Shown: positions 16,126 to 58,345 of the stretch, piece after piece | How positions within the stretch are numbered: position 1 is the first letter of the stretch | How the letters are laid out: each line of letters opens with the position of its first letter | Program-made: the position numbers and the translations under genes | Notes under the pieces: generated by a model | Database searches by the model: none | The model's input: the letters and a program-made list of their open reading frames with translations, nothing else | What the model was told of the DNA's origin: nothing | NCBI GenBank assembly: GCA_018712825.1 | Contig: DVGG01000035.1 | Location: 1 to 64,000, forward strand | Direction of reading: 5' to 3' | DNA from: Candidatus Faecousia excrementipullorum | GTDB taxonomy: Bacteria > Bacillota > Clostridia > Oscillospirales > Oscillospiraceae | Length of the DNA stretch: 64,000 nt

Positions 16126-16127
16126 GC

Positions 16128-16440
16128 GGGCAGTGCCCGCGGACAATTTCGCACGGTAGCTTTCTACGAATCGTTCTTTCCCTGACCCGCCCGGTATCGG
16201 CGGCTTGTCCGCCGAACTTATTCACTATTCACTCTTCACTATTCACTAAAAACGCCCGGTATCGGCGGCCTGCCAAAGCCCCCCTTGTCAAAGGGGGGTG
16301 GTTTTGCCTCCGGCAAAACCGGGGGGATTTCACCGGGTAGCAGGTTTCCACATGGGTCTGTGCTTCTGAGAAAATGCCTGCTGTGAATCCCTCAGTCACG
16401 GCTTACGCCGTGCCAGCTCCCTTTGGCAAGGGAGCCTTTT
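16128..16440 (+). repeat. Composite palindromic intergenic repeat, copy a
   Basis: Contains modules ...TTTCGCACGGTAGCTTTCTACGAATCGTTCTTTCCCTGACCCGCCCGGTATCGGCGG, TTATTCACTATTCACTCTTCACTATTCACT, CCCCCCTTGTCAAAGGGGGG and CTGTGAATCCCTCAGTCACGG...CCAGCTCCCTTTGGCAAGGGAGCC. Confidence 0.85.
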
Positions 16441-18047: not shown

Positions 18048-18212
18048 AGGGAAGCCCCCCTTGCCAAAGGGGGGTGGTTTTGCCTTTGGCAAAACCGGGG
18101 GGATAAAAGGCCAGTAGTTTTCCACATGAGTCTGTGCTTCTGAGAAAGTACCTGCTGTGAATCCCTCAGTCACGCCTCCGGCGTGCCAGCTCCCTTTGAC
18201 AAGGGAGCCTTG
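18048..18212 (+). repeat. Composite palindromic intergenic repeat, copy b
   Basis: CCCCCCTTGCCAAAGGGGGGTGGTTTTGCC...GGCAAAACCGGGGGGAT and CTGTGAATCCCTCAGTCACGCCTCCGGCGTGCCAGCTCCCTTTGACAAGGGAGCC. Confidence 0.85.
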
Positions 18213-37803: not shown

Positions 37804-39588
37804 ATGATATTCGGCAAGCACATTAACCGCTACTACCTGCGGTATCTGCCCATGCTTCTTATGGGCATTGCCGCACTTCTGGCGGTGGACTATTTTCAGC
37901 TGATTATCCCCAGCCTGTACCAGATGGTCATTAACGGCATGAACACAGGACAGGTGATGGTCAACGGGGCTGCGGTTCCCTTTGACATGGATTTTCTCAT
38001 GAATCAGATTTGTATGCCCATGGTGCGGGTAGTGCTCATTATGGTAGTTGGCCGGTTTGCCTGGCGTATCTGCTTTTTCGGCGCCGGTGTCCGGGCAGAG
38101 GAAGATCTGCGGAACCGGATGTTCAGCCACTGCCGGAGCCTGGGCCGCAGCTTCTACAACCAGAACAATGTGGGAAACCTTATGAGCCTGTTCACCAACG
38201 ACCTGGAAACCTTCCAGGAGAGCTACGGCTGGGGCATTATGATGTTCTGCGACGCTCTGTTCCTGTTCATCATGGCGGTATACAAGATGTGGAGGATGAA
38301 CGCCCTGCTTACCGGGCTGTCCCTCATTCCCATGGCGCTGCTGCTGTTCTGCTCTGTGGTGGTGGGACGGGCCATGGAGCGGAAGTGGGACTACCGGCAG
38401 AAAACCTTTTCTGACCTTTCCGACTTCTCCCAGGAGAGCTTCTCCGGCATTTCCGTGGTGAAGGCCTTCGTGAAGGAGGCTGTAGAGCTGATGAACTTCA
38501 AAAAGCTCAGCCAGGAAAACGAGCGGGCCAATGTGGACTTCACCCGGGCCTCCGTGCTGCTGCGGATTCTCGTTACCCTGTTTGTGGAGAGCGTCATCTG
38601 CGTGATTCTGGGCTACGGCGGCTACCTGGTGTACAGAGGGGTATTCAACGCCGGACAGCTGGTGGAGTTTATCGGCTATTTCAACGCCATCGTCTGGCCC
38701 ATTATGGCGGTATCCGAGCTCATCGACCTGACCAGCCGGGGCAAGGCCTCCTTAAAGCGTATCAGCGAGCTGCTGGACGCCCAGCCGGACATGGTAGACC
38801 GTCCCGATGTGGTAAGCATGAAGAACATCCGGGGTGACATTGAATTTAAGAATCTTACCTTCCGGTATCCGGACGGGGAGTTTGACTCCCTGGAAAATGT
38901 GTCCTTTGCCATCAAGGCCGGGGAAAACATCGGTCTGGTGGGCAAAACCGGCTCCGGCAAGACCACCATTGCAGACCTTCTGGTGCGTACATACAATGTG
39001 CCCGACGGCACGGTGTTTATTGACGGGCGGGATGTGAACACCATCCCCATCAAGGACGTGCGGGCAGGCTGCGCCTACGTGCCCCAGGAGAATTTCCTGT
39101 TCTCCGACACCATTACCAACAACATCGGCTTCGGCGTGGACGAAAAGTCCATGGCCGCCATTACCAAAGCCGCCGCCCTGGCTTCCGTGGACGCCAACAT
39201 CCGGGATTTCTCCCTGGGCTACAACACGGTGCTGGGTGAGCGGGGCGTTACCGTCTCCGGCGGTCAGAAGCAGCGGATTTCCATTGCCCGGGCCCTGATG
39301 ATGGATGCTCCCATCCTGATTCTGGACGATTCCGTGTCGGCGGTGGACACCAGGACGGAAAAAACCATTCTGGACAACCTCCGCTCCACCCGGCAGGGCA
39401 AAACCACCTTGCTCATTGCCCACCGGATTTCCACCATCGAGCGGATGGACCGGATTCTTTTCATCGACCAGGGCCGGGTGGTGGCCTTCGGCAAGCACGA
39501 GGATTTGTATGAGACCTGCCCGGACTACCGGAAGATGGTAGACCTGCAGCGGCTGGAAGAGGAAGGAGGGGAACACAACAATGGCTGA
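37804..39588 (+). CDS. Heterodimeric ABC exporter subunit (TMD-NBD), degenerate Walker B (ILDD)
   Basis: GLVGKTGSGKTTI, VTVSGGQKQRISIARALMMDAPILILDDSVSAVDT. Confidence 0.92.
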   Translation: MIFGKHINRYYLRYLPMLLMGIAALLAVDYFQLIIPSLYQMVINGMNTGQVMVNGAAVPFDMDFLMNQICMPMVRVVLIMVVGRFAWRICFFGAGVRAEEDLRNRMFSHCRSLGRSFYNQNNVGNLMSLFTNDLETFQESYGWGIMMFCDALFLFIMAVYKMWRMNALLTGLSLIPMALLLFCSVVVGRAMERKWDYRQKTFSDLSDFSQESFSGISVVKAFVKEAVELMNFKKLSQENERANVDFTRASVLLRILVTLFVESVICVILGYGGYLVYRGVFNAGQLVEFIGYFNAIVWPIMAVSELIDLTSRGKASLKRISELLDAQPDMVDRPDVVSMKNIRGDIEFKNLTFRYPDGEFDSLENVSFAIKAGENIGLVGKTGSGKTTIADLLVRTYNVPDGTVFIDGRDVNTIPIKDVRAGCAYVPQENFLFSDTITNNIGFGVDEKSMAAITKAAALASVDANIRDFSLGYNTVLGERGVTVSGGQKQRISIARALMMDAPILILDDSVSAVDTRTEKTILDNLRSTRQGKTTLLIAHRISTIERMDRILFIDQGRVVAFGKHEDLYETCPDYRKMVDLQRLEEEGGEHNNG

Positions 39589-41464
39589 GTATTTACCCAT
39601 TCTCATTGTGGCCGGGGTCATGCTGGTGTTTGCCGTGGCCTTCGTCATTGCCGCCGTCCTTATGGGAAAGGAAAAGGCCGCCAAGCAGGAGCGGTTCATG
39701 AAGGATTCTGAGCTGATTCGCCGCCTGCTGCCCTTTGCCAAGCCCTACTGGAAGTCCTTTTTGCTGGCATTTGTCATTACCATGGTATCCCTTACCTATG
39801 ACCTTCTGTCCCCTTACATGATCGGAAGCATTGAGGAGCTGGTGAAGGAGGCAGGCTTTACCATGTCGTCCCTGATCAGCCGGGTGGTGGTGTATGCAGG
39901 AATTCTGATTATCGCCATGATCTGCACCTATTTCCAGTCCATCATCCTGCAAAAGACCGGTCAGAAGATTCTCTCCGGCCTCCGGCTGAGCGTATTTTCC
40001 CACATTGAGCAGCTGTCCCACAATCAGCTGAACCAGATTCCCACCGGCAAGCTGGTGACCCGTGTCACCAACGACACCAACGCCATCTCCATGATGTTTA
40101 CCAACGTGCTGGTAAACATGACCAAGCAGGTGCTGGTGCTGGTAGGCGTTCTGGTGGCCATGTTCCTGCTGAACCCCGGCCTTACCCTGGTGATGCTGAT
40201 TTTCGTACCCTTTGTTCTTCTGTATACGGTGCTGTTCCGCCGCTTCTCCCGCCGGGCCCACCGGAAGGTGACGGACGCCCGTACCAATATCAATACCTTT
40301 TTGTCCGAGAACCTCTCCGGCATGAAAATCACCCAGATTTTCAACCGGGAGGAGGAGAAAATGCAGGTATTTTTGGAGAAAAGCCGCACCTTTGCCAAAA
40401 CCAAGCATGAGCGGATTTTCGTATTCGGCATCTTCCGCCCCCTGGTGTATATGACCTATATCTCCACGGTGATGGCCCTTTTCTACTTCAGCGGCAGAAG
40501 CTACATAGAAGGCTCCGCCCTTTTGGGGCAGGTGGTCACCAGCGGCCTGGTGGTAAGCTTCTATATGTACGCCTCCAAGTTCTTTAATCCCATTCAGACC
40601 ATGGCGGAGCAGTTTGATATTCTGCAGTCCGCCTTCGCCTCTGCGGAAAAGATCTTCACCGTCATGGACATGGTGCCGGAGGTGGTGGACGACGAGGGTG
40701 CCCAGCCTCTGGAGGAAATCCGGGGTGAAATCGAATTCAAGGATGTGTGGTTCTCCTACATCCCGGGAGAGTGGGTGCTCAAAGGTGTGTCCTTCCATGT
40801 AAAGCCCCAGGAGACGGTGGCCTTCGTAGGCTCCACCGGCTCAGGTAAAACCACCATTTTGTCCCTCATCTGCCGGAACTACGACATCCAGAAGGGCCAG
40901 ATTCTCATTGACGGCCGGGACATCCGCACCATCTCCATCGCCTCCTTGCGGCGGCACTTTGGTCAGATGCTTCAGGATGTGTTTTTGTTCTCCGGCACCA
41001 TCCGCAGCAACATCCTTCTGAACCTCCCGGGCGTCTCCGACGAAGAGGTGATGAAGGTCTGCCGGTATGTAAACGCCGACGGCTTCATAAACCGCATGGA
41101 CAAGGGACTGGATGAGGAAGTGCGGGAGAACGGCAACAACTTCTCCGCCGGTCAGCGGCAGCTTCTCAGCTTTGCCCGGACCATCATCCACAAGCCCTCT
41201 GTCATGATTCTGGACGAGGCCACCGCCAACATCGACACGGAAACGGAAGTGCTGATTCAGGACTCTCTGGAGAAGATGCGAAACATCGGCACCATGCTCA
41301 TTGTTGCCCACCGCCTTTCCACCATCCAGCATGCGGACAACATCATCCTTCTGTCCCACGGTCAGATTCTGGAGCAGGGCAACCACCAGGAGCTGCTGGC
41401 GAAAAAGGGCCGGTACTACCAGCTCTACACCCTCCAGTACCACAAGAATCAGCTCAGCTCCTGA
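39581..41464 (+). CDS. Heterodimeric ABC exporter subunit (TMD-NBD), canonical Walker B (ILDE)
   Basis: FVGSTGSGKTTIL, FSAGQRQLLSFARTIIHKPSVMILDEATANIDTETE; 8-nt overlap with partner. Confidence 0.93.
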   Translation: MAEYLPILIVAGVMLVFAVAFVIAAVLMGKEKAAKQERFMKDSELIRRLLPFAKPYWKSFLLAFVITMVSLTYDLLSPYMIGSIEELVKEAGFTMSSLISRVVVYAGILIIAMICTYFQSIILQKTGQKILSGLRLSVFSHIEQLSHNQLNQIPTGKLVTRVTNDTNAISMMFTNVLVNMTKQVLVLVGVLVAMFLLNPGLTLVMLIFVPFVLLYTVLFRRFSRRAHRKVTDARTNINTFLSENLSGMKITQIFNREEEKMQVFLEKSRTFAKTKHERIFVFGIFRPLVYMTYISTVMALFYFSGRSYIEGSALLGQVVTSGLVVSFYMYASKFFNPIQTMAEQFDILQSAFASAEKIFTVMDMVPEVVDDEGAQPLEEIRGEIEFKDVWFSYIPGEWVLKGVSFHVKPQETVAFVGSTGSGKTTILSLICRNYDIQKGQILIDGRDIRTISIASLRRHFGQMLQDVFLFSGTIRSNILLNLPGVSDEEVMKVCRYVNADGFINRMDKGLDEEVRENGNNFSAGQRQLLSFARTIIHKPSVMILDEATANIDTETEVLIQDSLEKMRNIGTMLIVAHRLSTIQHADNIILLSHGQILEQGNHQELLAKKGRYYQLYTLQYHKNQLSS

Positions 41465-41471
41465 GAAAAAG

Positions 41472-41686
41472 TTTTCCACAGGCGGGCAAATGCCCTTGGG
41501 GAAAAAATGGAAAAACAGGCTTTTCCACTTCCTCCACAGGAAATTCCACAGGAGTTATCCACACTATCCACAGGTTTTTCCACAGGCTAATCCCACCTCA
41601 TCCCCTGAAAACCCCGGGTTTTCAGGGGATTTTCCTTTTTTATCCACAGTTTCCACATAAGCTGTGGATAAAAAGTCTGTGCATAA
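41472..41686. other. DnaA-box cluster in a convergent intergenic region
   Basis: Exact TTATCCACA at 41555-41563, 41640-41648 and (reverse) 41663-41671; near matches TTTTCCACA 41472 and 41576, CTATCCACA 41564, AATTCCACA 41542, GTTTCCACA 41649, TGTGCATAA 41678. Confidence 0.85.
41600..41641 (+). terminator. Terminator of ABC exporter operon (inside the DnaA-box cluster)
   Basis: ATCCCCTGAAAA-N7-TTTTCAGGGGAT then TTTCCTTTTTT. Confidence 0.8.
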
Positions 41687-41736: not shown

Positions 41737-43716
41737 TCAAACCTTTTGCAGCACCACCGCTGTGCGGCAGGGCAGGTAGATTTGCAGCACCGGGGTGCCG
41801 TCGGCTCTTGTGTGGGTCTCGTAATCCTGGTGGTACACCCGGCCGTGACCGCCGTAGTCAAAGTCATCGGAGGTGAAGCAAACCCGGTAGGTGCCGGCCT
41901 CCGGCATGGGGATCTCCAGGCCGTCCTGGCTCCAGGTGGGGTGGAAGTTGAAGAGGAACACCCCTTCTCCCTTCCGGAAGGCCATAATCTTCTGGTCGTT
42001 GGAGATATAGAGCTGCCGGTCGGTTTTCCCCAGCACCCGCAGGCGCTTACTCAGGGCAATCATATCCTTGTCAAAGCGGTTAAGATACTGGTATTTCAGG
42101 TTCTTGTCGTCTGCCAGGTGCCACTGACGGCGGCAGTAGTGGTAGCTCCAGCCGTTGCCCTCCCGGGGGAAGTCAATCCACTCGGGATGGCCGAACTCGT
42201 TACCCATGAAGTTCAGGTACCCCTCGCCACCCAGGGACAAGGTCACCAGGCGGATCATCTTGTGCAGGGCCATTGCCCGGTCAATAATAGGGCTGTCGTT
42301 GTCCCGATTCATGGACCAGTACATCTCCGAATCGCACATGCGGAACATGATGGTCTTGTCTCCCACCAGCGCCTGGTCATGGGACTCGCAGTAACCGATG
42401 ACCGGCTCTTTGGGTCTGCGGGTGGACAGCTCGTAGTAGATATAGTCCATGTTCCAGTTGTCGTCGGAGACCTCTTTGAGAAGCTTGATCCACATATCCG
42501 GCTCGCCCATGGCCAGCCGATAGGTAAAGCCCACGCCTCCGTCCTTCACCGGCAAAGCCAGGCCGGGCAGGGCAGAGGTATCCTCCGCAATGGTGATGGC
42601 TTTGGGGTTGCCCTGGCGCACCATCAGGTTTGCCAGCTGGAGGTAGGTCACCGCCTCTACGTCCGTATTCATGGAGAAGTACTGGTCGTACCCCATGAAG
42701 GCGGTGCCCAGGCCGTGGTCGTGGTAGAGCATGGAGGTGACACCGTCAAACCGGAAGCCGTCAAAGTGGAACTGGGTCATCCAGTATTTGAGGTTGGACA
42801 GCAGGAAGTGGATGACCTCGTTTTTGTCGTAGTTGAAGCACTTGGTATTCCAGGCGGGGTGCTCACCCTGACCGCCTGCGTGGAAGAACTGGTAGTCGGT
42901 GCCGTCAAACTGGTTGATGCCCTCCCGGGTGTTCTTGCAGGCGTGGGAGTGAACCACATCCAGAAGCACGGCAATGCCCAGCTTATGGGCCCGGTCAATG
43001 AGGGCCTTCAGCTCCTCCGGGGTACCGAACCGGGAGGAGGGGGCAAAGAAGTTGGTCACCTGATAGCCAAAGGAGGCATAGTAGGGGTGCTCCATAATGG
43101 CCATAATCTGAATGGCGGTGTAGCCCAGCTTTTTGATGCGGGGCAGGGTGTTTTCCATGAACTCCCGGTAGGAGCCCACCTTTCCCTCCTCCTGGGCCAT
43201 GCCGATGTGACACTCGTAGATATAGAGCTTGCTCTTGGGCTTGAAGCCTTCATCCGTCCATGGATATGCTTCGGCGGTGTGAATCACGGCGTTCCACTCC
43301 ACCGAGTCCTTCTCCTGCACCACGTAGTTGGCATACAGGGGAATCCGCTCCAGCTCCTGCCCTTCGTGGACTACCACCGTCAGCACCTTCATACCGTTTT
43401 GCAGGGTGTCCTTGCCGGGGATGAACAGGGAGAACACCCCGTTTTCCAGCTTCTCCATGGGGTAGGCATGGCGGTCCCAGCCGCAGAAGTCACCGGTGAG
43501 GTACATGGCCTCCGCACCCGGCGCCCACTCCCGGTAATACCATCCGTCGGGGGTTTGGTGCAGGCCAAAATATTCATAGCCGTTGGCAAAGTCCCACAGG
43601 CTCTGTCCCTGGGGAAGCAGCTCCTGAAGCTTGTTCTTCAGCCGCTCCGCCCGCAAGTCAAAATCCTTCTCATAGGGCTTCAGGTAGGGGTCATACTGGA
43701 GTATTTTATGCTTCAT
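41737..43716 (-). CDS. glgB: 1,4-alpha-glucan branching enzyme
   Basis: GH13 motifs: DVVHSHA, GFRFDGVTSMLY, NFMGNEFGHPEWIDFPREGNGWSY. Confidence 0.93.
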   Translation of the reverse strand: MKHKILQYDPYLKPYEKDFDLRAERLKNKLQELLPQGQSLWDFANGYEYFGLHQTPDGWYYREWAPGAEAMYLTGDFCGWDRHAYPMEKLENGVFSLFIPGKDTLQNGMKVLTVVVHEGQELERIPLYANYVVQEKDSVEWNAVIHTAEAYPWTDEGFKPKSKLYIYECHIGMAQEEGKVGSYREFMENTLPRIKKLGYTAIQIMAIMEHPYYASFGYQVTNFFAPSSRFGTPEELKALIDRAHKLGIAVLLDVVHSHACKNTREGINQFDGTDYQFFHAGGQGEHPAWNTKCFNYDKNEVIHFLLSNLKYWMTQFHFDGFRFDGVTSMLYHDHGLGTAFMGYDQYFSMNTDVEAVTYLQLANLMVRQGNPKAITIAEDTSALPGLALPVKDGGVGFTYRLAMGEPDMWIKLLKEVSDDNWNMDYIYYELSTRRPKEPVIGYCESHDQALVGDKTIMFRMCDSEMYWSMNRDNDSPIIDRAMALHKMIRLVTLSLGGEGYLNFMGNEFGHPEWIDFPREGNGWSYHYCRRQWHLADDKNLKYQYLNRFDKDMIALSKRLRVLGKTDRQLYISNDQKIMAFRKGEGVFLFNFHPTWSQDGLEIPMPEAGTYRVCFTSDDFDYGGHGRVYHQDYETHTRADGTPVLQIYLPCRTAVVLQKV

Positions 43717-43865
43717 ATGTACCAAGACCTTTCTAATGTATTGGTGGTTTCCTTGTCTTTAGTTTACTCTTATCCCGTGTCGGTGTCAAGGGAAAGGGGA
43801 AAGTTCCCGGTATAATCTTGTCCCGGGGGACATAGTCTGCAATAGGATTCAAGGAGGGGATAACC

Positions 43866-45011
43866 ATGAAAAAATGGATATGCGTGGGGCTGATTTTATC
43901 CATGCTGGTGCTGCCGGTACAGGCCCAGCCGGAAGGCCTGTCCGTAGCGGGAAAAAGCGCCCTTTTGATGGACGCTGCCACGGGGACAGTGCTGTTTGAA
44001 AGCAACTCCCACGAAAAGCTGGCTCCTGCCAGCGTCACCAAGGTGATGACCTTGCTTCTCATCATGGAGGCCATTGACTCGGGGAAAATCGGCTGGAAGG
44101 ACACGGTCACCGCTTCTGCGGAGGCCGCCGCCAAGGGAGGCAGTCAGATTTTCCTGAAGGAAGGGGAGACCATGTCGGTGGAGGACATGGTAAAATCCAT
44201 CGCCGTATCCTCTGCCAACGACTGCGCCTGCGCCATGGCAGAGCATATTGCCGGCAGTGAAGCCGCCTTTGTGGATTTAATGAACCAGAAGGCCAAGGAG
44301 CTGGGGATGAACGACACCAACTTTGTCAACTGCACCGGCCTTGACGACGAGCCGGAGGCGGAAAACCACAAAACCTCTGCCTATGACATTGCCCTTATGT
44401 CCCGGGAGCTGATTGTAAAGCACCCGGACATTGAGAAGTACACCACCATCTGGATGGACACGGTGCGAAACGGCACCTTCGGCCTTTCCAACACCAACAA
44501 GCTGATTCGGTTCTACTCCGGCGCCACGGGCCTGAAAACCGGCTATACCTCCGGGGCAGGGTACTGCCTGTCGGCCACCGCCAAGCGGGACGGGATGGAG
44601 CTGATTGCGGTGGTAATGGGCTGTGAAACCTCCAAGGAGCGGCTGGCAGCCTGCAAGACCCTGCTGGACTTTGGCTTTGCCAACTACGCCCTGGTAACCC
44701 CGGAGCTTTCCGGCTCCAATCCGGTACCGGTGAAGCTGGGGACTGAGAACCAGGTGAACGCCGTTCCCGGGGAAAATCCCCAGCTGCTTATCAGCAAGGG
44801 GCAAAAGGACATGGTAACCACCCACATTACCCTGGAGGAGGGGGTCACCGCCCCGGTGAGCCGGGGGCAGCGGCTGGGCACTCTGGAAATCAAGGCCGGA
44901 GACCAGATTCTTGCCCAGGTGAGCATGGTGGCAGAGGCCCCGGTAGAGCGGCTGACTCTGGGGCAGCTGTTTGTGCAGATGCTGCGGCAGCTCTCCGGCA
45001 GCCCCGCCTGA
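43866..45011 (+). CDS. D-alanyl-D-alanine carboxypeptidase (DacF-like)
   Basis: PASVTKVMTLLLI (SxxK), SSANDCACAMAEH (SxN), KTGYTSGAGYCLSAT (KTG). Confidence 0.93.
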   Translation: MKKWICVGLILSMLVLPVQAQPEGLSVAGKSALLMDAATGTVLFESNSHEKLAPASVTKVMTLLLIMEAIDSGKIGWKDTVTASAEAAAKGGSQIFLKEGETMSVEDMVKSIAVSSANDCACAMAEHIAGSEAAFVDLMNQKAKELGMNDTNFVNCTGLDDEPEAENHKTSAYDIALMSRELIVKHPDIEKYTTIWMDTVRNGTFGLSNTNKLIRFYSGATGLKTGYTSGAGYCLSATAKRDGMELIAVVMGCETSKERLAACKTLLDFGFANYALVTPELSGSNPVPVKLGTENQVNAVPGENPQLLISKGQKDMVTTHITLEEGVTAPVSRGQRLGTLEIKAGDQILAQVSMVAEAPVERLTLGQLFVQMLRQLSGSPA

Positions 45012-45083
45012 TATTTTTCCCGCCCGGTACGGCTAACCGGGCGGGAAAACCTGTAAAAATCCAGATTTTTCCCGGAAAAGTCC

Positions 45084-45112
45084 TTGACAATTAGCCCTGG
45101 CACCTATATAAT
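45084..45112 (+). promoter_or_regulatory. Consensus sigma-A promoter of rpsF-ssb-rpsR
   Basis: TTGACA-N17-TATAAT, both hexamers perfect. Confidence 0.88.
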
Positions 45113-45191
45113 AAACTGGTCTGCATATGCAGACAAATCCTTGCTCCCGGGGAGCCCGGGGGCCAAAAGTCCAAAAGGAGGTGCAAACAAC

Positions 45192-45488
45192 ATGGCTAAG
45201 ATTACCGGTAAGTACGAGGTGCTCTACATCATCGACCCCGCTCAGGGCGAGGAGGGCATCGCCGCACTTGTGGAAAAGTTCAAGGCAATGGTGGAAGCGG
45301 AGGGTACCCTGTCCAATGTGGACGAGTGGGGCAAGCGCCGTCTGGCATACCCCATCAACGACCTGACCGAAGGCTACTATGTACTGATGAACTTCGAGTC
45401 CCAGCCCAACTTCCCTGCTGAGCTGGAGCGTGTGATGAAGATCACCGAAGGCGTACTGCGTTGCCTGACCACCGTAGTGGCTGAGTAA
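45192..45488 (+). CDS. rpsF: 30S ribosomal protein S6
   Basis: KYEVLYIIDP...VDEWGKRRLAYPINDLTEGYYVLMNFES; start ATG 45192 after AAGGAGG. Confidence 0.96.
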   Translation: MAKITGKYEVLYIIDPAQGEEGIAALVEKFKAMVEAEGTLSNVDEWGKRRLAYPINDLTEGYYVLMNFESQPNFPAELERVMKITEGVLRCLTTVVAE

Positions 45489-45500
45489 GGAGGCATTTCC

Positions 45501-46001
45501 ATGCTTAACCACATCGTCATTATGGGTCGTTTGACCCGTGACCCCGAGCTGCGCCGTACCGGCAGCGGAATCGCGGTAACATCCTTTACACTGGCTGTTG
45601 ACCGGGATTACAACTCCAAGGAGAGCGGCGAACGGGAGACCGATTTCATCGACTGTGTTGCCTGGCGGTCTACGGGAGAGTTTGTCTCCAAGTACTTTGC
45701 CAAGGGCCGCATGGCGGTGGTATCCGGCCGGCTGCAAATCCGCAGCTGGACGGACAAGGACGGCAATAAGCGCCGCTCCGCCGAGGTTGTGGCAGACAAT
45801 GTCTACTTCGGCGAAAGCAAGCGGGATGAGAGCAGCGCCCCCTACGGCGGCAACGCCTACGGCAGCGCAAGCGGCATTACGCCCCCTCCCGCCCCCGGCT
45901 ATGGCGGATACAGCGCCCCGGCGCCCACCTATTCCGCTCCCAGCCAGAGTGCGTCGGATTTTGCCATGCTGGACGACAACGACGCCCAGCTGCCGTTCTG
46001 A
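45501..46001 (+). CDS. ssb: Single-stranded DNA-binding protein
   Basis: [33 protein letters not shown]; acidic C-terminus DDNDAQLPF. Confidence 0.97.
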
Positions 46002-46045
46002 TTTTTCTGAACTTTTCACAAATGCTTACAAAGGAGGTTATTTCC

Positions 46046-46282
46046 ATGGCTAACGAACAGCGTGTCCGTCCCCGTAAGCGCAAGAAGGTTTGCGCTTTCT
46101 GCGTGGACAAGGTGACCAGCGTTGATTACAAGGATACTGCAAAGCTCCGCCGCTACCTGTCCGAGCGTGGCAAGATTCTGCCCCGCCGTACCACCGGTAC
46201 CTGCGCAGCTCACCAGCGTGACCTGACCACCGCCATCAAGCGGGCCCGTCAGATTGCTCTGCTGCCCTACGTTGCAGACTGA
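46046..46282 (+). CDS. rpsR: 30S ribosomal protein S18
   Basis: [55 protein letters not shown]. Confidence 0.97.
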
Positions 46283-46291
46283 TCATGGCTC

Positions 46292-46324
46292 AAAAACCCC
46301 CGGACTTTCGTCCGGGGGTTTTTT
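46292..46324. terminator. Terminator of rpsF-ssb-rpsR (bidirectional)
   Basis: AAAAACCCCCGGAC-TTTC-GTCCGGGGGTTTTTT. Confidence 0.9.
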
Positions 46325-46332
46325 GCATTTTT

Positions 46333-47605: not shown

Positions 47606-47900
47606 ACCAGGCGGCGAGTCGCCGCTGACATTTTCGCACGGTGGCTTTCTGCTGCTCGTTACTTCCCTGACCCGCCCGGTATCGGCGGCCTGCCAAAGCC
47701 CCCCTTGACAAAGGGGGGTGCCTCGGCTCCGCCGAGGCGGGGGGATAAGAGGCTTCCAGGTTTCCACATGGGTTTGTACTTTCAGAAAGTGCCTGCTGTG
47801 AATCCCTCAGTCACGGCTACGCCGTGCCAGCTCCCACAGGCCGGGAGCCTTTGCGGCCAGTGGCCGCAGAAATTGTCCGCGGCGACTCGCCGCCCGCCCG
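47606..47900 (+). repeat. Composite palindromic intergenic repeat, copy d (upstream of dnaA)
   Basis: GCGGCGAGTCGCCGC palindromes at 47611-47625 and (reverse complement) 47879-47893 flank the other modules. Confidence 0.85.
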
Positions 47901-48017: not shown

Positions 48018-49331
48018 ATGTACTCATCTGCCTATGTGTGGGCCAAAGTTTTGCAGTATATGGAGGAGCGTCTGGATGCGGTCACGGTGTCTGCCTGGTT
48101 TGACGATGCGGAAGTGGTGGAGCTGAACGAGGAACACCTGATTTTGTACTCCTCTTCCGACTTCCGCCGGGAGACTATCCGCCGCCGCTGCACCGAATAT
48201 ATCCACGATGCCCTGCGGGAAATTTTCAATTCCGATGCCAAGCTTTTGGTGTTCGGAGATGAGGAGCTGAACGCTTACCGGGCCAAAGGAAAGCGGAAAA
48301 CCTCCATGGACTTTAACCCCCAGTTTACCTTTGAAAGCTTCGTGGTAGGCCCCTCCAACCGGTTCGCCCACGGCGCCGCCATCGCCGTATCCAACAATCC
48401 CGGCCAGGTGTATAACCCCCTGTTCATCTACGGCCCTGCGGGTGTGGGCAAGACCCACCTGCTGTACGCCATCGCCAACGGCATCCGGAAAACCTCCCCC
48501 GACGCCAACATCGTCTATATCAAGGGCGACCAGTTCACCAACGAGCTGATCTCCGCTCTGCAAAGCGGCAAGAACATCGAGTTCCGGAACAAATACCGGG
48601 AGGCCGACCTGTTCCTGATCGATGATATCCAGTTCATCGCCGGTAAGGAGTCTACCCAGGAGGAGTTCTTCCATACCTTCAATAAGCTCTACGAGGAGCA
48701 TAAGCAGATCGTCATGACCTCCGACCGGAAGCCCAACGATATGCTCACCCTGGAGGACCGGCTGAAAACCCGGTTTGAGTGGGGCCTGATTGCGGACGTC
48801 CAGCCCCCGGACTACGAAACCCGGATGGCCATTATCCGAAACAAAGCCACTTCTCTGGGCCTGGACCTGAGCTACGACATCTGCGACTATATCGCCAACA
48901 ATGTCACCAGCAACGTGCGGCAGATTGAGGGTACGGTGAAGAAGATCCGGGCCTATGTGGACTTAAACGGCATGACTCTGGATCTTCCCAACGTATCCCG
49001 GGCCATTGACGATATGTTCAAGCGGGAGGGCAACGCCCTGCCCACCCCCAGCCTGATTATCAGCCAGGTGTGCAAGTTCTACTCCATGGACGAGTCGGTG
49101 ATTCGGGGTACCCTGAAAAACAAGGGCACCACAGAAGCCCGGCAGATTGCCATTTACCTCACCCGGAAGCTCACCAATCTGAGCCTGCCGGACATCGGCA
49201 AGGAATTTGGCCGGGACCACTCCACGGTGCTCTACGCCATCCGCAAGGTGGAAGTGGCCCTCAAGGGCGGCAACGAAACCATGCAGAACAACATTCGGGA
49301 CATCACCGCCAATATCAACGCCTCTTTGTAA
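48018..49331 (+). CDS. dnaA: Chromosomal replication initiator protein DnaA
   Basis: NPLFIYGPAGVGKTHLLYAI, DLFLIDDIQFIAGKESTQEEFFHTFN, LPDIGKEFGRDHSTVLYAIRKVE. Confidence 0.98.
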   Translation: MYSSAYVWAKVLQYMEERLDAVTVSAWFDDAEVVELNEEHLILYSSSDFRRETIRRRCTEYIHDALREIFNSDAKLLVFGDEELNAYRAKGKRKTSMDFNPQFTFESFVVGPSNRFAHGAAIAVSNNPGQVYNPLFIYGPAGVGKTHLLYAIANGIRKTSPDANIVYIKGDQFTNELISALQSGKNIEFRNKYREADLFLIDDIQFIAGKESTQEEFFHTFNKLYEEHKQIVMTSDRKPNDMLTLEDRLKTRFEWGLIADVQPPDYETRMAIIRNKATSLGLDLSYDICDYIANNVTSNVRQIEGTVKKIRAYVDLNGMTLDLPNVSRAIDDMFKREGNALPTPSLIISQVCKFYSMDESVIRGTLKNKGTTEARQIAIYLTRKLTNLSLPDIGKEFGRDHSTVLYAIRKVEVALKGGNETMQNNIRDITANINASL

Positions 49332-49344
49332 GTCGTACCCGGTA

Positions 49345-49834
49345 CGAAATCGACAGCGGCGGTACACCGCCGGGAACTGCCTGCAAGCTGTAAATTGACG
49401 GCTTGTACTTCGACAACGAGATGATAAGGGTGCGTAAAAGGGAAAAGCCAAAGGCTCCCTTGCCAAAGGGAGCTGGCAAAAATCTTTGATTTTTGACTGA
49501 GGGATTCACAGCAGGCACTTCCCCAAAAGCACAAACCTATGTGAAAAGGCAGAAGCCTATAGCTCCCTCCGGGAGGGAGCTGTCACCGCAGGTGACTGAG
49601 GGAGCCAGCGGGCGGGAAACCGACGGTTTGCTTTCGGGTTGGTACTTGATAGAGGTTATCGATACCCCAACTTCCACCGCAGTAACGATACCGGGCGGGT
49701 CAGGGAAGTAACGAGAAGCAGAAAGCAATCGTGCGAAATAGTCAGCGGCGACTCGCCGCCGATACCGGGCTTTGGAGGGGCAGTAACGATTTGCTGAAGA
49801 TTACCGTGCGAAATCGTCCGCGGCGACTCGCCGC
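49345..49834 (-). repeat. Composite palindromic intergenic repeats, copy e (between dnaA and oriC)
   Basis: GGCTCCCTTGCCAAAGGGAGC, ATAGCTCCCTCCGGGAGGGAGCTGTCACCGCAGGTGACTGAGGGAGCCAGCGG, CGATACCGGGCGGGTCAGGGAAGTAACGA, palindromes GCGGCGACTCGCCGC at 49745 and 49820. Confidence 0.85.
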
Positions 49835-50061
49835 GTATCCACAGGGGCTGTGGAATGTGGATGGATGGGCTGTGGAAAAAAATCTTTCCACAAGGTTCTC
49901 CAATTCCCTGTGGAAAAGTTCTTCTTTCTACACATTCTCCTGTGGATAAATTTCCCTTGCCTCTCTAAGACAAAACCCAGTTTTCCACATAAATTTCCCC
50001 TACTACTATTACTACTACCTAAAATATTTACTTTTATATTTATTATTCATTATTTTACAGA
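49835..50061 (+). other. oriC: Chromosomal replication origin oriC
   Basis: DnaA boxes: GTATCCACA 49835, TGTGGAATG 49849, TGTGGATGG 49856, TGTGGAAAA 49871 and 49909, CTTTCCACA 49884, TGTGGATAA 49941 (perfect), TTTTCCACA 49981; DnaA-trio TACTACTATTACTACTAC 50001-50018; AT-rich 50019-50061; between dnaA and dnaN. Confidence 0.93.
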
Positions 50062-57923: not shown

Positions 57924-58345
57924 CTTTCTACAAATCGTTCTTTCCCTGACCCGCCCGGTATCGGCGGCTTGTCCGCCGAACTTATTCACTATTCACTCTT
58001 CACTATTCACTAAAAACGCCCGGTATCGGCGGCCAATGGCCGCAGACGATTTCGCACGATGGCTTTCTACGAATCGTTCTTTCCCTGACCCGCCCGGTAT
58101 CGTTACTGCGGTGCATGGTTGGGTATCGATAATCTCTATAAAGTACCACCCCATCGCAAACCGGAACTGCACCCCCCGCTGGCTCCCTCAGTCACAGCTA
58201 CGCTGTGACAGCTCCCTCCCGGAGGGAGCTATGGGGTGCATACCTTTCCACATCGGACTTTTGCAATATGTAAAGTGCCAACTGTGAATCCCTCAGGCAC
58301 GCCTCCGGCGTGCCAGCTCCTTTTAACAAGGGAGCCTTTTTGCGC
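57890..58345 (+). repeat. Composite palindromic intergenic repeats, copy g (overlaps 3' end of remB)
   Basis: Palindrome GCGGCGAGTCGCCGC 57890-57904; near-identical to copy a over ~125 bp (57905-58031); further modules to the GGGAGCC hairpin. Confidence 0.87.

Follow-up and report, generated by a model that had tools for sequence, protein, structure and literature searches.

Arrangement of the DnaA boxes at the locus

The cluster of DnaA boxes occupies positions 41472–41686 (no strand assigned) of the window, i.e. of the whole stretch of 64,000 nucleotides analysed, and was delimited by box scans of the window and of the assembly. It is located between two gene ends. On the left, the second gene of an ABC exporter (39581–41464, forward strand), encoding a subunit with ABC_membrane and ABC_tran domains, stops at 41464; on the right, an open reading frame on the reverse strand (41737–43725) ends, its product being a GlgB-like GH13 protein that scores below the NCBIfam GlgB cut-offs. 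An intrinsic terminator hairpin (41600–41630, forward strand; dG -22.9 kcal/mol, z -5.6) is situated directly 3' of the core array. A preliminary description, made from the sequence alone, had placed the cluster in a convergent junction of ABC exporter and glgB with a terminator in the middle, which the two stops and the hairpin confirmed; all boxes named in it were found in place within 41472–41686.

The boxes form head-to-tail units spaced by 9 and 12 bp rather than a loose cluster. The core array (41555–41584, forward strand) is made up of TTATCCACA at 41555, CTATCCACA at 41564 and TTTTCCACA at 41576, with starts at 0/+9/+21. Upstream, on the same strand, there is a degenerate first 9/12 unit (41521–41550) of TTTTCCACT at 41521, TCCTCCACA at 41530 and AATTCCACA at 41542; the units at 41521 and 41555 were recorded by the repeat finder as a 32-nt repeat with 75% identity, 34 bp apart. 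Beyond the hairpin, a third abutting pair, TTATCCACA/GTTTCCACA (41640/41649; 41640–41657, forward strand), is followed by an exact DnaA box in inverted orientation (41663–41671, reverse strand) and by TTATGCACA (41678–41686, reverse strand), which has one mismatch to the consensus and reads TGTGCATAA on the forward strand. The outermost box on the left is TTTTCCACA at 41472–41480 (forward strand).

The array is 6.5 kb from the start of dnaA (48018–49331, forward strand), and the cluster is about 8 kb from the origin. As a comparison we used the dnaA-dnaN origin itself (49835–50022, no strand assigned), which contains DnaA boxes and a CTACTACTATTACTACTAC trio-like repeat comparable with the DnaA-trio of C. 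difficile (PMC7561715). Neither an AT-rich unwinding element nor a trio was found beside the array, bearing out the absence reported before, and no promoter-like site was found at the locus. The dnaA-dnaN gap, about 750 bp long here, also contains an interspersed repeat of up to ~220 bp (49446–49667); similar stretches are situated at ~16126–16439, 18123–18211, 47765–47891 and 58017–58339, and the repeat is present many times both in this genome (hereafter G000) and in its relative G001.

Counting TTATCCACA with at most one mismatch gave 40 sites in the window against 9.0 ± 3.3 in shuffles. By this count, the densest 250 bp of the window start at 41472 and contain 7 sites (within 215 bp), the dnaA-dnaN region having 5. 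For the G000 assembly (1.96 Mb, 78 contigs, 96% complete), genome-wide box counts were obtained by pattern searches with TTWTCCACA on both strands; there are 24 exact TTATCCACA and 98 TTWTCCACA sites. Three or more of the latter per 250 bp occur at only three places, namely at the locus described here, with 5 in 200 bp, in the dnaA-dnaN gap, with 4 in 119 bp, and at C77:23427–23482, with 4 in 56 bp. The locus thus has the highest strict-box count of the assembly, above that of the dnaA-dnaN gap too, and the suggestion that it is the densest cluster outside oriC stood up, the one other cluster being that on C77.

Conservation of the box spacing in the genus

The array was defined by the pattern TNTCCACA-N-TNTCCACA-N4-TNTCCACA (starts 0/9/21), which was searched in 71 genomes of Candidatus Faecousia. 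These genomes are drafts or metagenome-assembled, with contig ends cutting some loci, and the pattern is strict, so that degenerate copies are missed. The 0/9/21 spacing was present in 59 of the 71 genomes, with 96 arrays altogether and mostly two per more complete genome. Both control patterns, the reversed one and the one with the last box shifted inwards by 1 bp, were found in 0 of the 71. Conservation in related genomes, which the preliminary description had proposed to check, was thereby established.

As an unbiased check on the spacing, 80 oriC loci were retrieved with dnaA as the sole criterion. Outside the dnaA-dnaN gap of these loci, boxes paired on the same strand were spaced by 9 (18 cases), 12 (17) and 21 (18), with almost no other value, while those inside the gap were spaced by 15, 32, 39 and 54. 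Since the two sets of spacings differ, the array is an element in its own right and not a copy of oriC.

Alignment of G000 with its relatives G069 (DnaA ~100% identical to that of G000) and G001 indicated conservation from about 41542 (AATTCCACA) to the end of the terminator, which is kept in both relatives. The outer boxes (41472 and 41640–41686, the third abutting pair included) are common to G000 and G069 only, being absent from G001, and could be incidental.

Genomic context of the arrays

The arrays of the genus fall into two families. In family A, the array is located between sigG and rpsT, in the same orientation, and for most genomes ~305–360 bp upstream of the rpsT start; the sigma factor was identified as SigG by the NCBIfam model PRK08215. 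The second array of G000 (L001 5428–5483, i.e. G000:C77:23427–23482), with starts at 0/9/21/34/47, is situated there, as are its counterparts in some 30 Faecousia genomes. This position raises the possibility of a link between DnaA and expression of the forespore sigma factor. In several relatives, TTCGAC(A) repeats resembling Spo0A boxes follow the downstream motif.

In family B, the array follows an acyl-ACP thioesterase gene (PF01643) at its 3' end in about 23 genomes; the genes further downstream encode HtrA-, histidine kinase- and response regulator-like proteins, of which the first two were named by reading of the sequence. In G000, the thioesterase gene is on another contig and has no boxes behind it. 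We assigned the array of G000 to family B by its architecture, copy number per genome and position, the neighbours not being shared. The neighbours do change within the family, from the thioesterase gene in those ~23 genomes to an ABC exporter and an SLH gene in G001, and to an ABC exporter and glgB in G000 and G069. The glgB flank was considered as a conserved context and rejected, there being no cluster at the glgB flanks of relatives.

In G001 (CASFFN010000008.1), the same ABC exporter and the array are 2.5 kb upstream of dnaA, beside an SLH/cadherin-type gene, and therefore the 6.5 kb between array and dnaA in G000 is a lineage-specific difference. The glgB-dacA-ssb block (window 41741–46330) is rearranged in G001, where it is found ~21 to 26 kb after the dnaA start; the ssb gene of this block (PF00436, 45501–46001) is near dnaA in the window.

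Fourteen family-B arrays share a contig with dnaA (G000, G001, G009, G011, G018, G020, G024, G028, G031, G061, G065, G086, G089 and G092), and all of them are within 14 kb of it, on either side (-13.8 to +12.1 kb). Scoring on the same contig favours short distances, and family A, linked to dnaA in 1 of ~33 cases (G064), is under the same bias; the denominators of this comparison, 30 and 33, are our own counts. In the 80 oriC loci, 17 strict arrays were counted against 0.8 expected from the genus-wide density. As the relatives are not independent, the P values for oriC proximity and for family linkage are overstated. The contig ends of unlinked family-B arrays are mostly compatible with a distance below 17 kb, with the exception of G019, where the family-B array and dnaA are separated by 37 kb or more. 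The latter genome has another box group, of opposed pairs, ~20 kb from dnaA (G019:C6:27334–27376).

Beyond the genus, the array was found in 52 of 295 genomes and 27 of 148 genera of the order. There it lies next to the 3' end of tsaD or of a ComM/YifB-like gene, or next to mraZ, rpsJ or further genes, all named from reading the sequences, with tsaD confirmed by tblastn; of the 30 arrays in the order but outside the genus, 12 have tsaD as a neighbour. When the phylum was sampled evenly, 22 of 300 genomes had the array, and tsaD (gcp) was the neighbour in 19 of the 21 cases outside the order. Loci of distant Bacillota (L307–L327, L263–L284) have the identical spacing at the tsaD 3' end, matching B. 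subtilis gcp-ydiF by gene position. We infer from these distributions that the tsaD site is old and that the array has often been moved or replaced in the order. In other genera the arrays are mostly unlinked to dnaA, hence the array does not in general need to be close to oriC. The 3' junction of gcp-ydiF is one of the strongest DnaA sites of B. subtilis, with 10 boxes, a Kd of 0.15 uM for ATP-DnaA and a 16-fold preference for the ATP form at 55 nM (PMC4447404).

A motif accompanying the arrays

Within the order, the motif TTNACATAA occurs at a fixed distance from most arrays. It is present in 31 of 34 family-A loci, in most of the 34 at about +72 to +75, and at -48 to -52 in ~19 of 28 family-B loci; in tsaD loci of one family it is mostly at +128. 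Per group, 28–32 occurrences were observed against 0.5–1.0 in shuffles, the background being 0.32 per 10 kb. Fifteen of the 17 arrays of the unbiased oriC loci have the motif within ~300 bp, nearly all at -48 to -50. Further examples are found in the array flanks of L196–L286, e.g. L245 and L280–L286. The motif is also frequent 3–4 kb after the dnaA start in oriC loci, in what is presumably recF coding sequence (Leu-His-Asn codons). Its reading as a -35 box is unlikely, position 3 of TTNACA being free.

TTNACATAA is absent from both strands of the window and from the sequences flanking the arrays of G069 and G001, and the clade of these three genomes has lost it. At +123 from the array start (41678), where other family-B loci have TTNACATAA at +124 to +126, the sequence here is TGTGCATAA. 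Most tsaD arrays outside the order are without the motif as well.

Functional interpretation

We consider the locus to be an oriC-proximal DnaA-box cluster (DBC) of the B. subtilis type, which by analogy would bind DnaA and restrain initiation, and put the probability of this reading at roughly 60%. It is supported by the fixed 9/12 steps, the conservation throughout the genus, the proximity to oriC and the build shared with the tsaD arrays. Several boxes are clustered outside oriC above chance, and they are conserved, both in 59 of 71 genus genomes with none in the controls and in the alignment with G001 and G069. The G000 copy, between ABC exporter and glgB, is away from the gcp/tsaD 3' end, which is a positional trait and not a requirement for a DBC. 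We thus regard the array as probably being a long-standing control element, one by which DnaA is held or sensed, and not as an accident. The preliminary description had left open whether the cluster is one half of a bipartite origin, since displaced, or a locus comparable to DBC, datA or DARS; conservation with changing neighbours, positions on either side of dnaA and spacing of the tsaD type favour the DBC-like reading, whereas the displaced half is disfavoured.

Under the DBC-like reading, the 9/12 spacing would nucleate a DnaA oligomer on double-stranded DNA, with DnaA binding to the array cooperatively. The array would be replicated soon after oriC and therefore double in dosage at once, so that the newly formed origins would be deprived of free (probably ATP-bound) DnaA and re-initiation damped; the array itself would neither unwind nor fire. 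In B. subtilis, deletion of six DBCs leads to early initiation (reviewed in PMC5295017 and PMC13220808), the effects of DBCs being modest and partly redundant, with one review doubting a significant role (PMC5295017).

Among the alternatives, a control locus for the nucleotide state of DnaA, similar to datA or DARS, is the one that the accompanying motif speaks for. DnaA bound to the array would here hydrolyse ATP or exchange ADP, and an accessory protein at TTNACATAA would take the place of IHF/Fis. The fixed distances of the motif from arrays of the order, at numbers far above those in shuffles, and the preference of the B. subtilis gcp site for ATP-DnaA (PMC4447404) are in line with this. 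Nevertheless, we rate it as unlikely, for TTNACATAA is lost in G000, G069 and G001 and missing at most tsaD arrays outside the order, the boxes are arranged head to tail, and B. subtilis has no known locus that acts on the nucleotide state (PMC13220808). A still broader proposal is that the 0/9/21 array, together with a partner protein at TTNACATAA in most Oscillospirales-like relatives, might represent the missing Gram-positive counterpart of datA/DARS. Such an element would be ancient, ancestrally behind tsaD and controlling which nucleotide DnaA carries or how it assembles, and in Faecousia it would have become tethered by oriC and coupled to the sporulation gene sigG; to this we give rather little credence.

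That the cluster is the displaced upstream half of a bipartite oriC, which would open the origin by looping to its dnaA-dnaN counterpart, we hold to be improbable. Clostridial origins have been described as bipartite (PMC7561715), the array of G001 is 2.5 kb upstream of dnaA, and boxes are few in the dnaA upstream region here. The scarcity of the latter, already noted in the preliminary description, was confirmed: there is 1 box within 800 bp in the window, and the genus means are 0.7 upstream against 5.0 downstream. Upstream boxes are lacking in the sampled sister families too (counted by the TTWTCCACA core only), so that none of these sister lineages presents an upstream half available for displacement. 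A classical bipartite origin with its upstream half at dnaA was likewise rejected, upstream boxes being few or none. Moreover, the arrays are found on either side of dnaA (-13.8 to +12 kb) with no AT-rich unwinding element or trio adjoining, their internal spacing is unlike that of oriC, and arrays of the same build are found away from dnaA in other genera.

Transcriptional control of the neighbouring genes in response to DnaA is, in our estimation, improbable as well. DnaA does regulate genes of B. subtilis such as sda (PMC4447404), and the sister array between sigG and rpsT is situated ~305–360 bp before each start. However, the G000 copy is located between gene ends, by terminators and with no promoter-like site found, and the array is conserved while its neighbours are not; its convergent, terminator-bounded position suggests a binding site rather than a promoter. 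Finally, chance or drift, by which boxes would have arisen in an AT-rich intergenic spacer, has a negligible probability despite the lack of the outer boxes (41472, 41640–41686) in G001, and is refuted for the core array by counts far above shuffles and by a fixed spacing that 59 of 71 genomes share and the control patterns never match.

The role of DnaA-box clusters outside oriC is debated in Gram-positive bacteria, deletions in B. subtilis being weak and redundant. The fixed spacing, the tsaD site, the tether to oriC and the companion motif suggest that the array is kept by selection for a function. The phylum-wide spacing rule, the preference for tsaD, the oriC-tethered copy and the motif also provide the exact bases for mutation. 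In a search of the freely accessible literature, the spacing rule, the conservation at tsaD beyond B. subtilis and the companion motif were undescribed, and nothing was found on DnaA boxes of Oscillospirales, nor on gcp with DnaA beyond PMC4447404.

Comparison with known systems

The locus shares with bipartite oriC regions (B. subtilis, oriC1 of C. difficile) a second DnaA-box cluster in the neighbourhood of dnaA; in contrast to these, the array is outside the dnaA upstream gap, on a side that is not fixed, and no unwinding element adjoins it. With DARS1 and DARS2 of E. coli it has in common three closely spaced DnaA boxes in non-coding DNA, although the three boxes of the array follow one another head to tail in steps of 9 and 12 bp, an arrangement that seems unlike that of the DARS core (boxes I–III, DARS orientation). 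E. coli datA, which needs an IHF site besides its DnaA boxes for function, would be similar by analogy as a DnaA-box locus outside oriC that acts on the supply of DnaA, and the site of a second protein may belong to the arrays of relatives; the sequences are unrelated, and the G000 copy is without the companion motif TTNACATAA.

The closest likeness is that to the DBCs of B. subtilis, especially to the one at the gcp-ydiF 3' junction, which is likewise an intergenic multi-box cluster between gene ends and away from oriC (reported by Okumura 2012 as cited in PMC5295017; DnaA binding in PMC4447404). Unlike it, the array of the genus has a strict 0/9/21 step and is found within ~14 kb of dnaA and not at tsaD. 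Identically built arrays of other Bacillota share with the gcp-ydiF DBC the gene end at which they lie, that of tsaD (gcp), the likeness being one of position.
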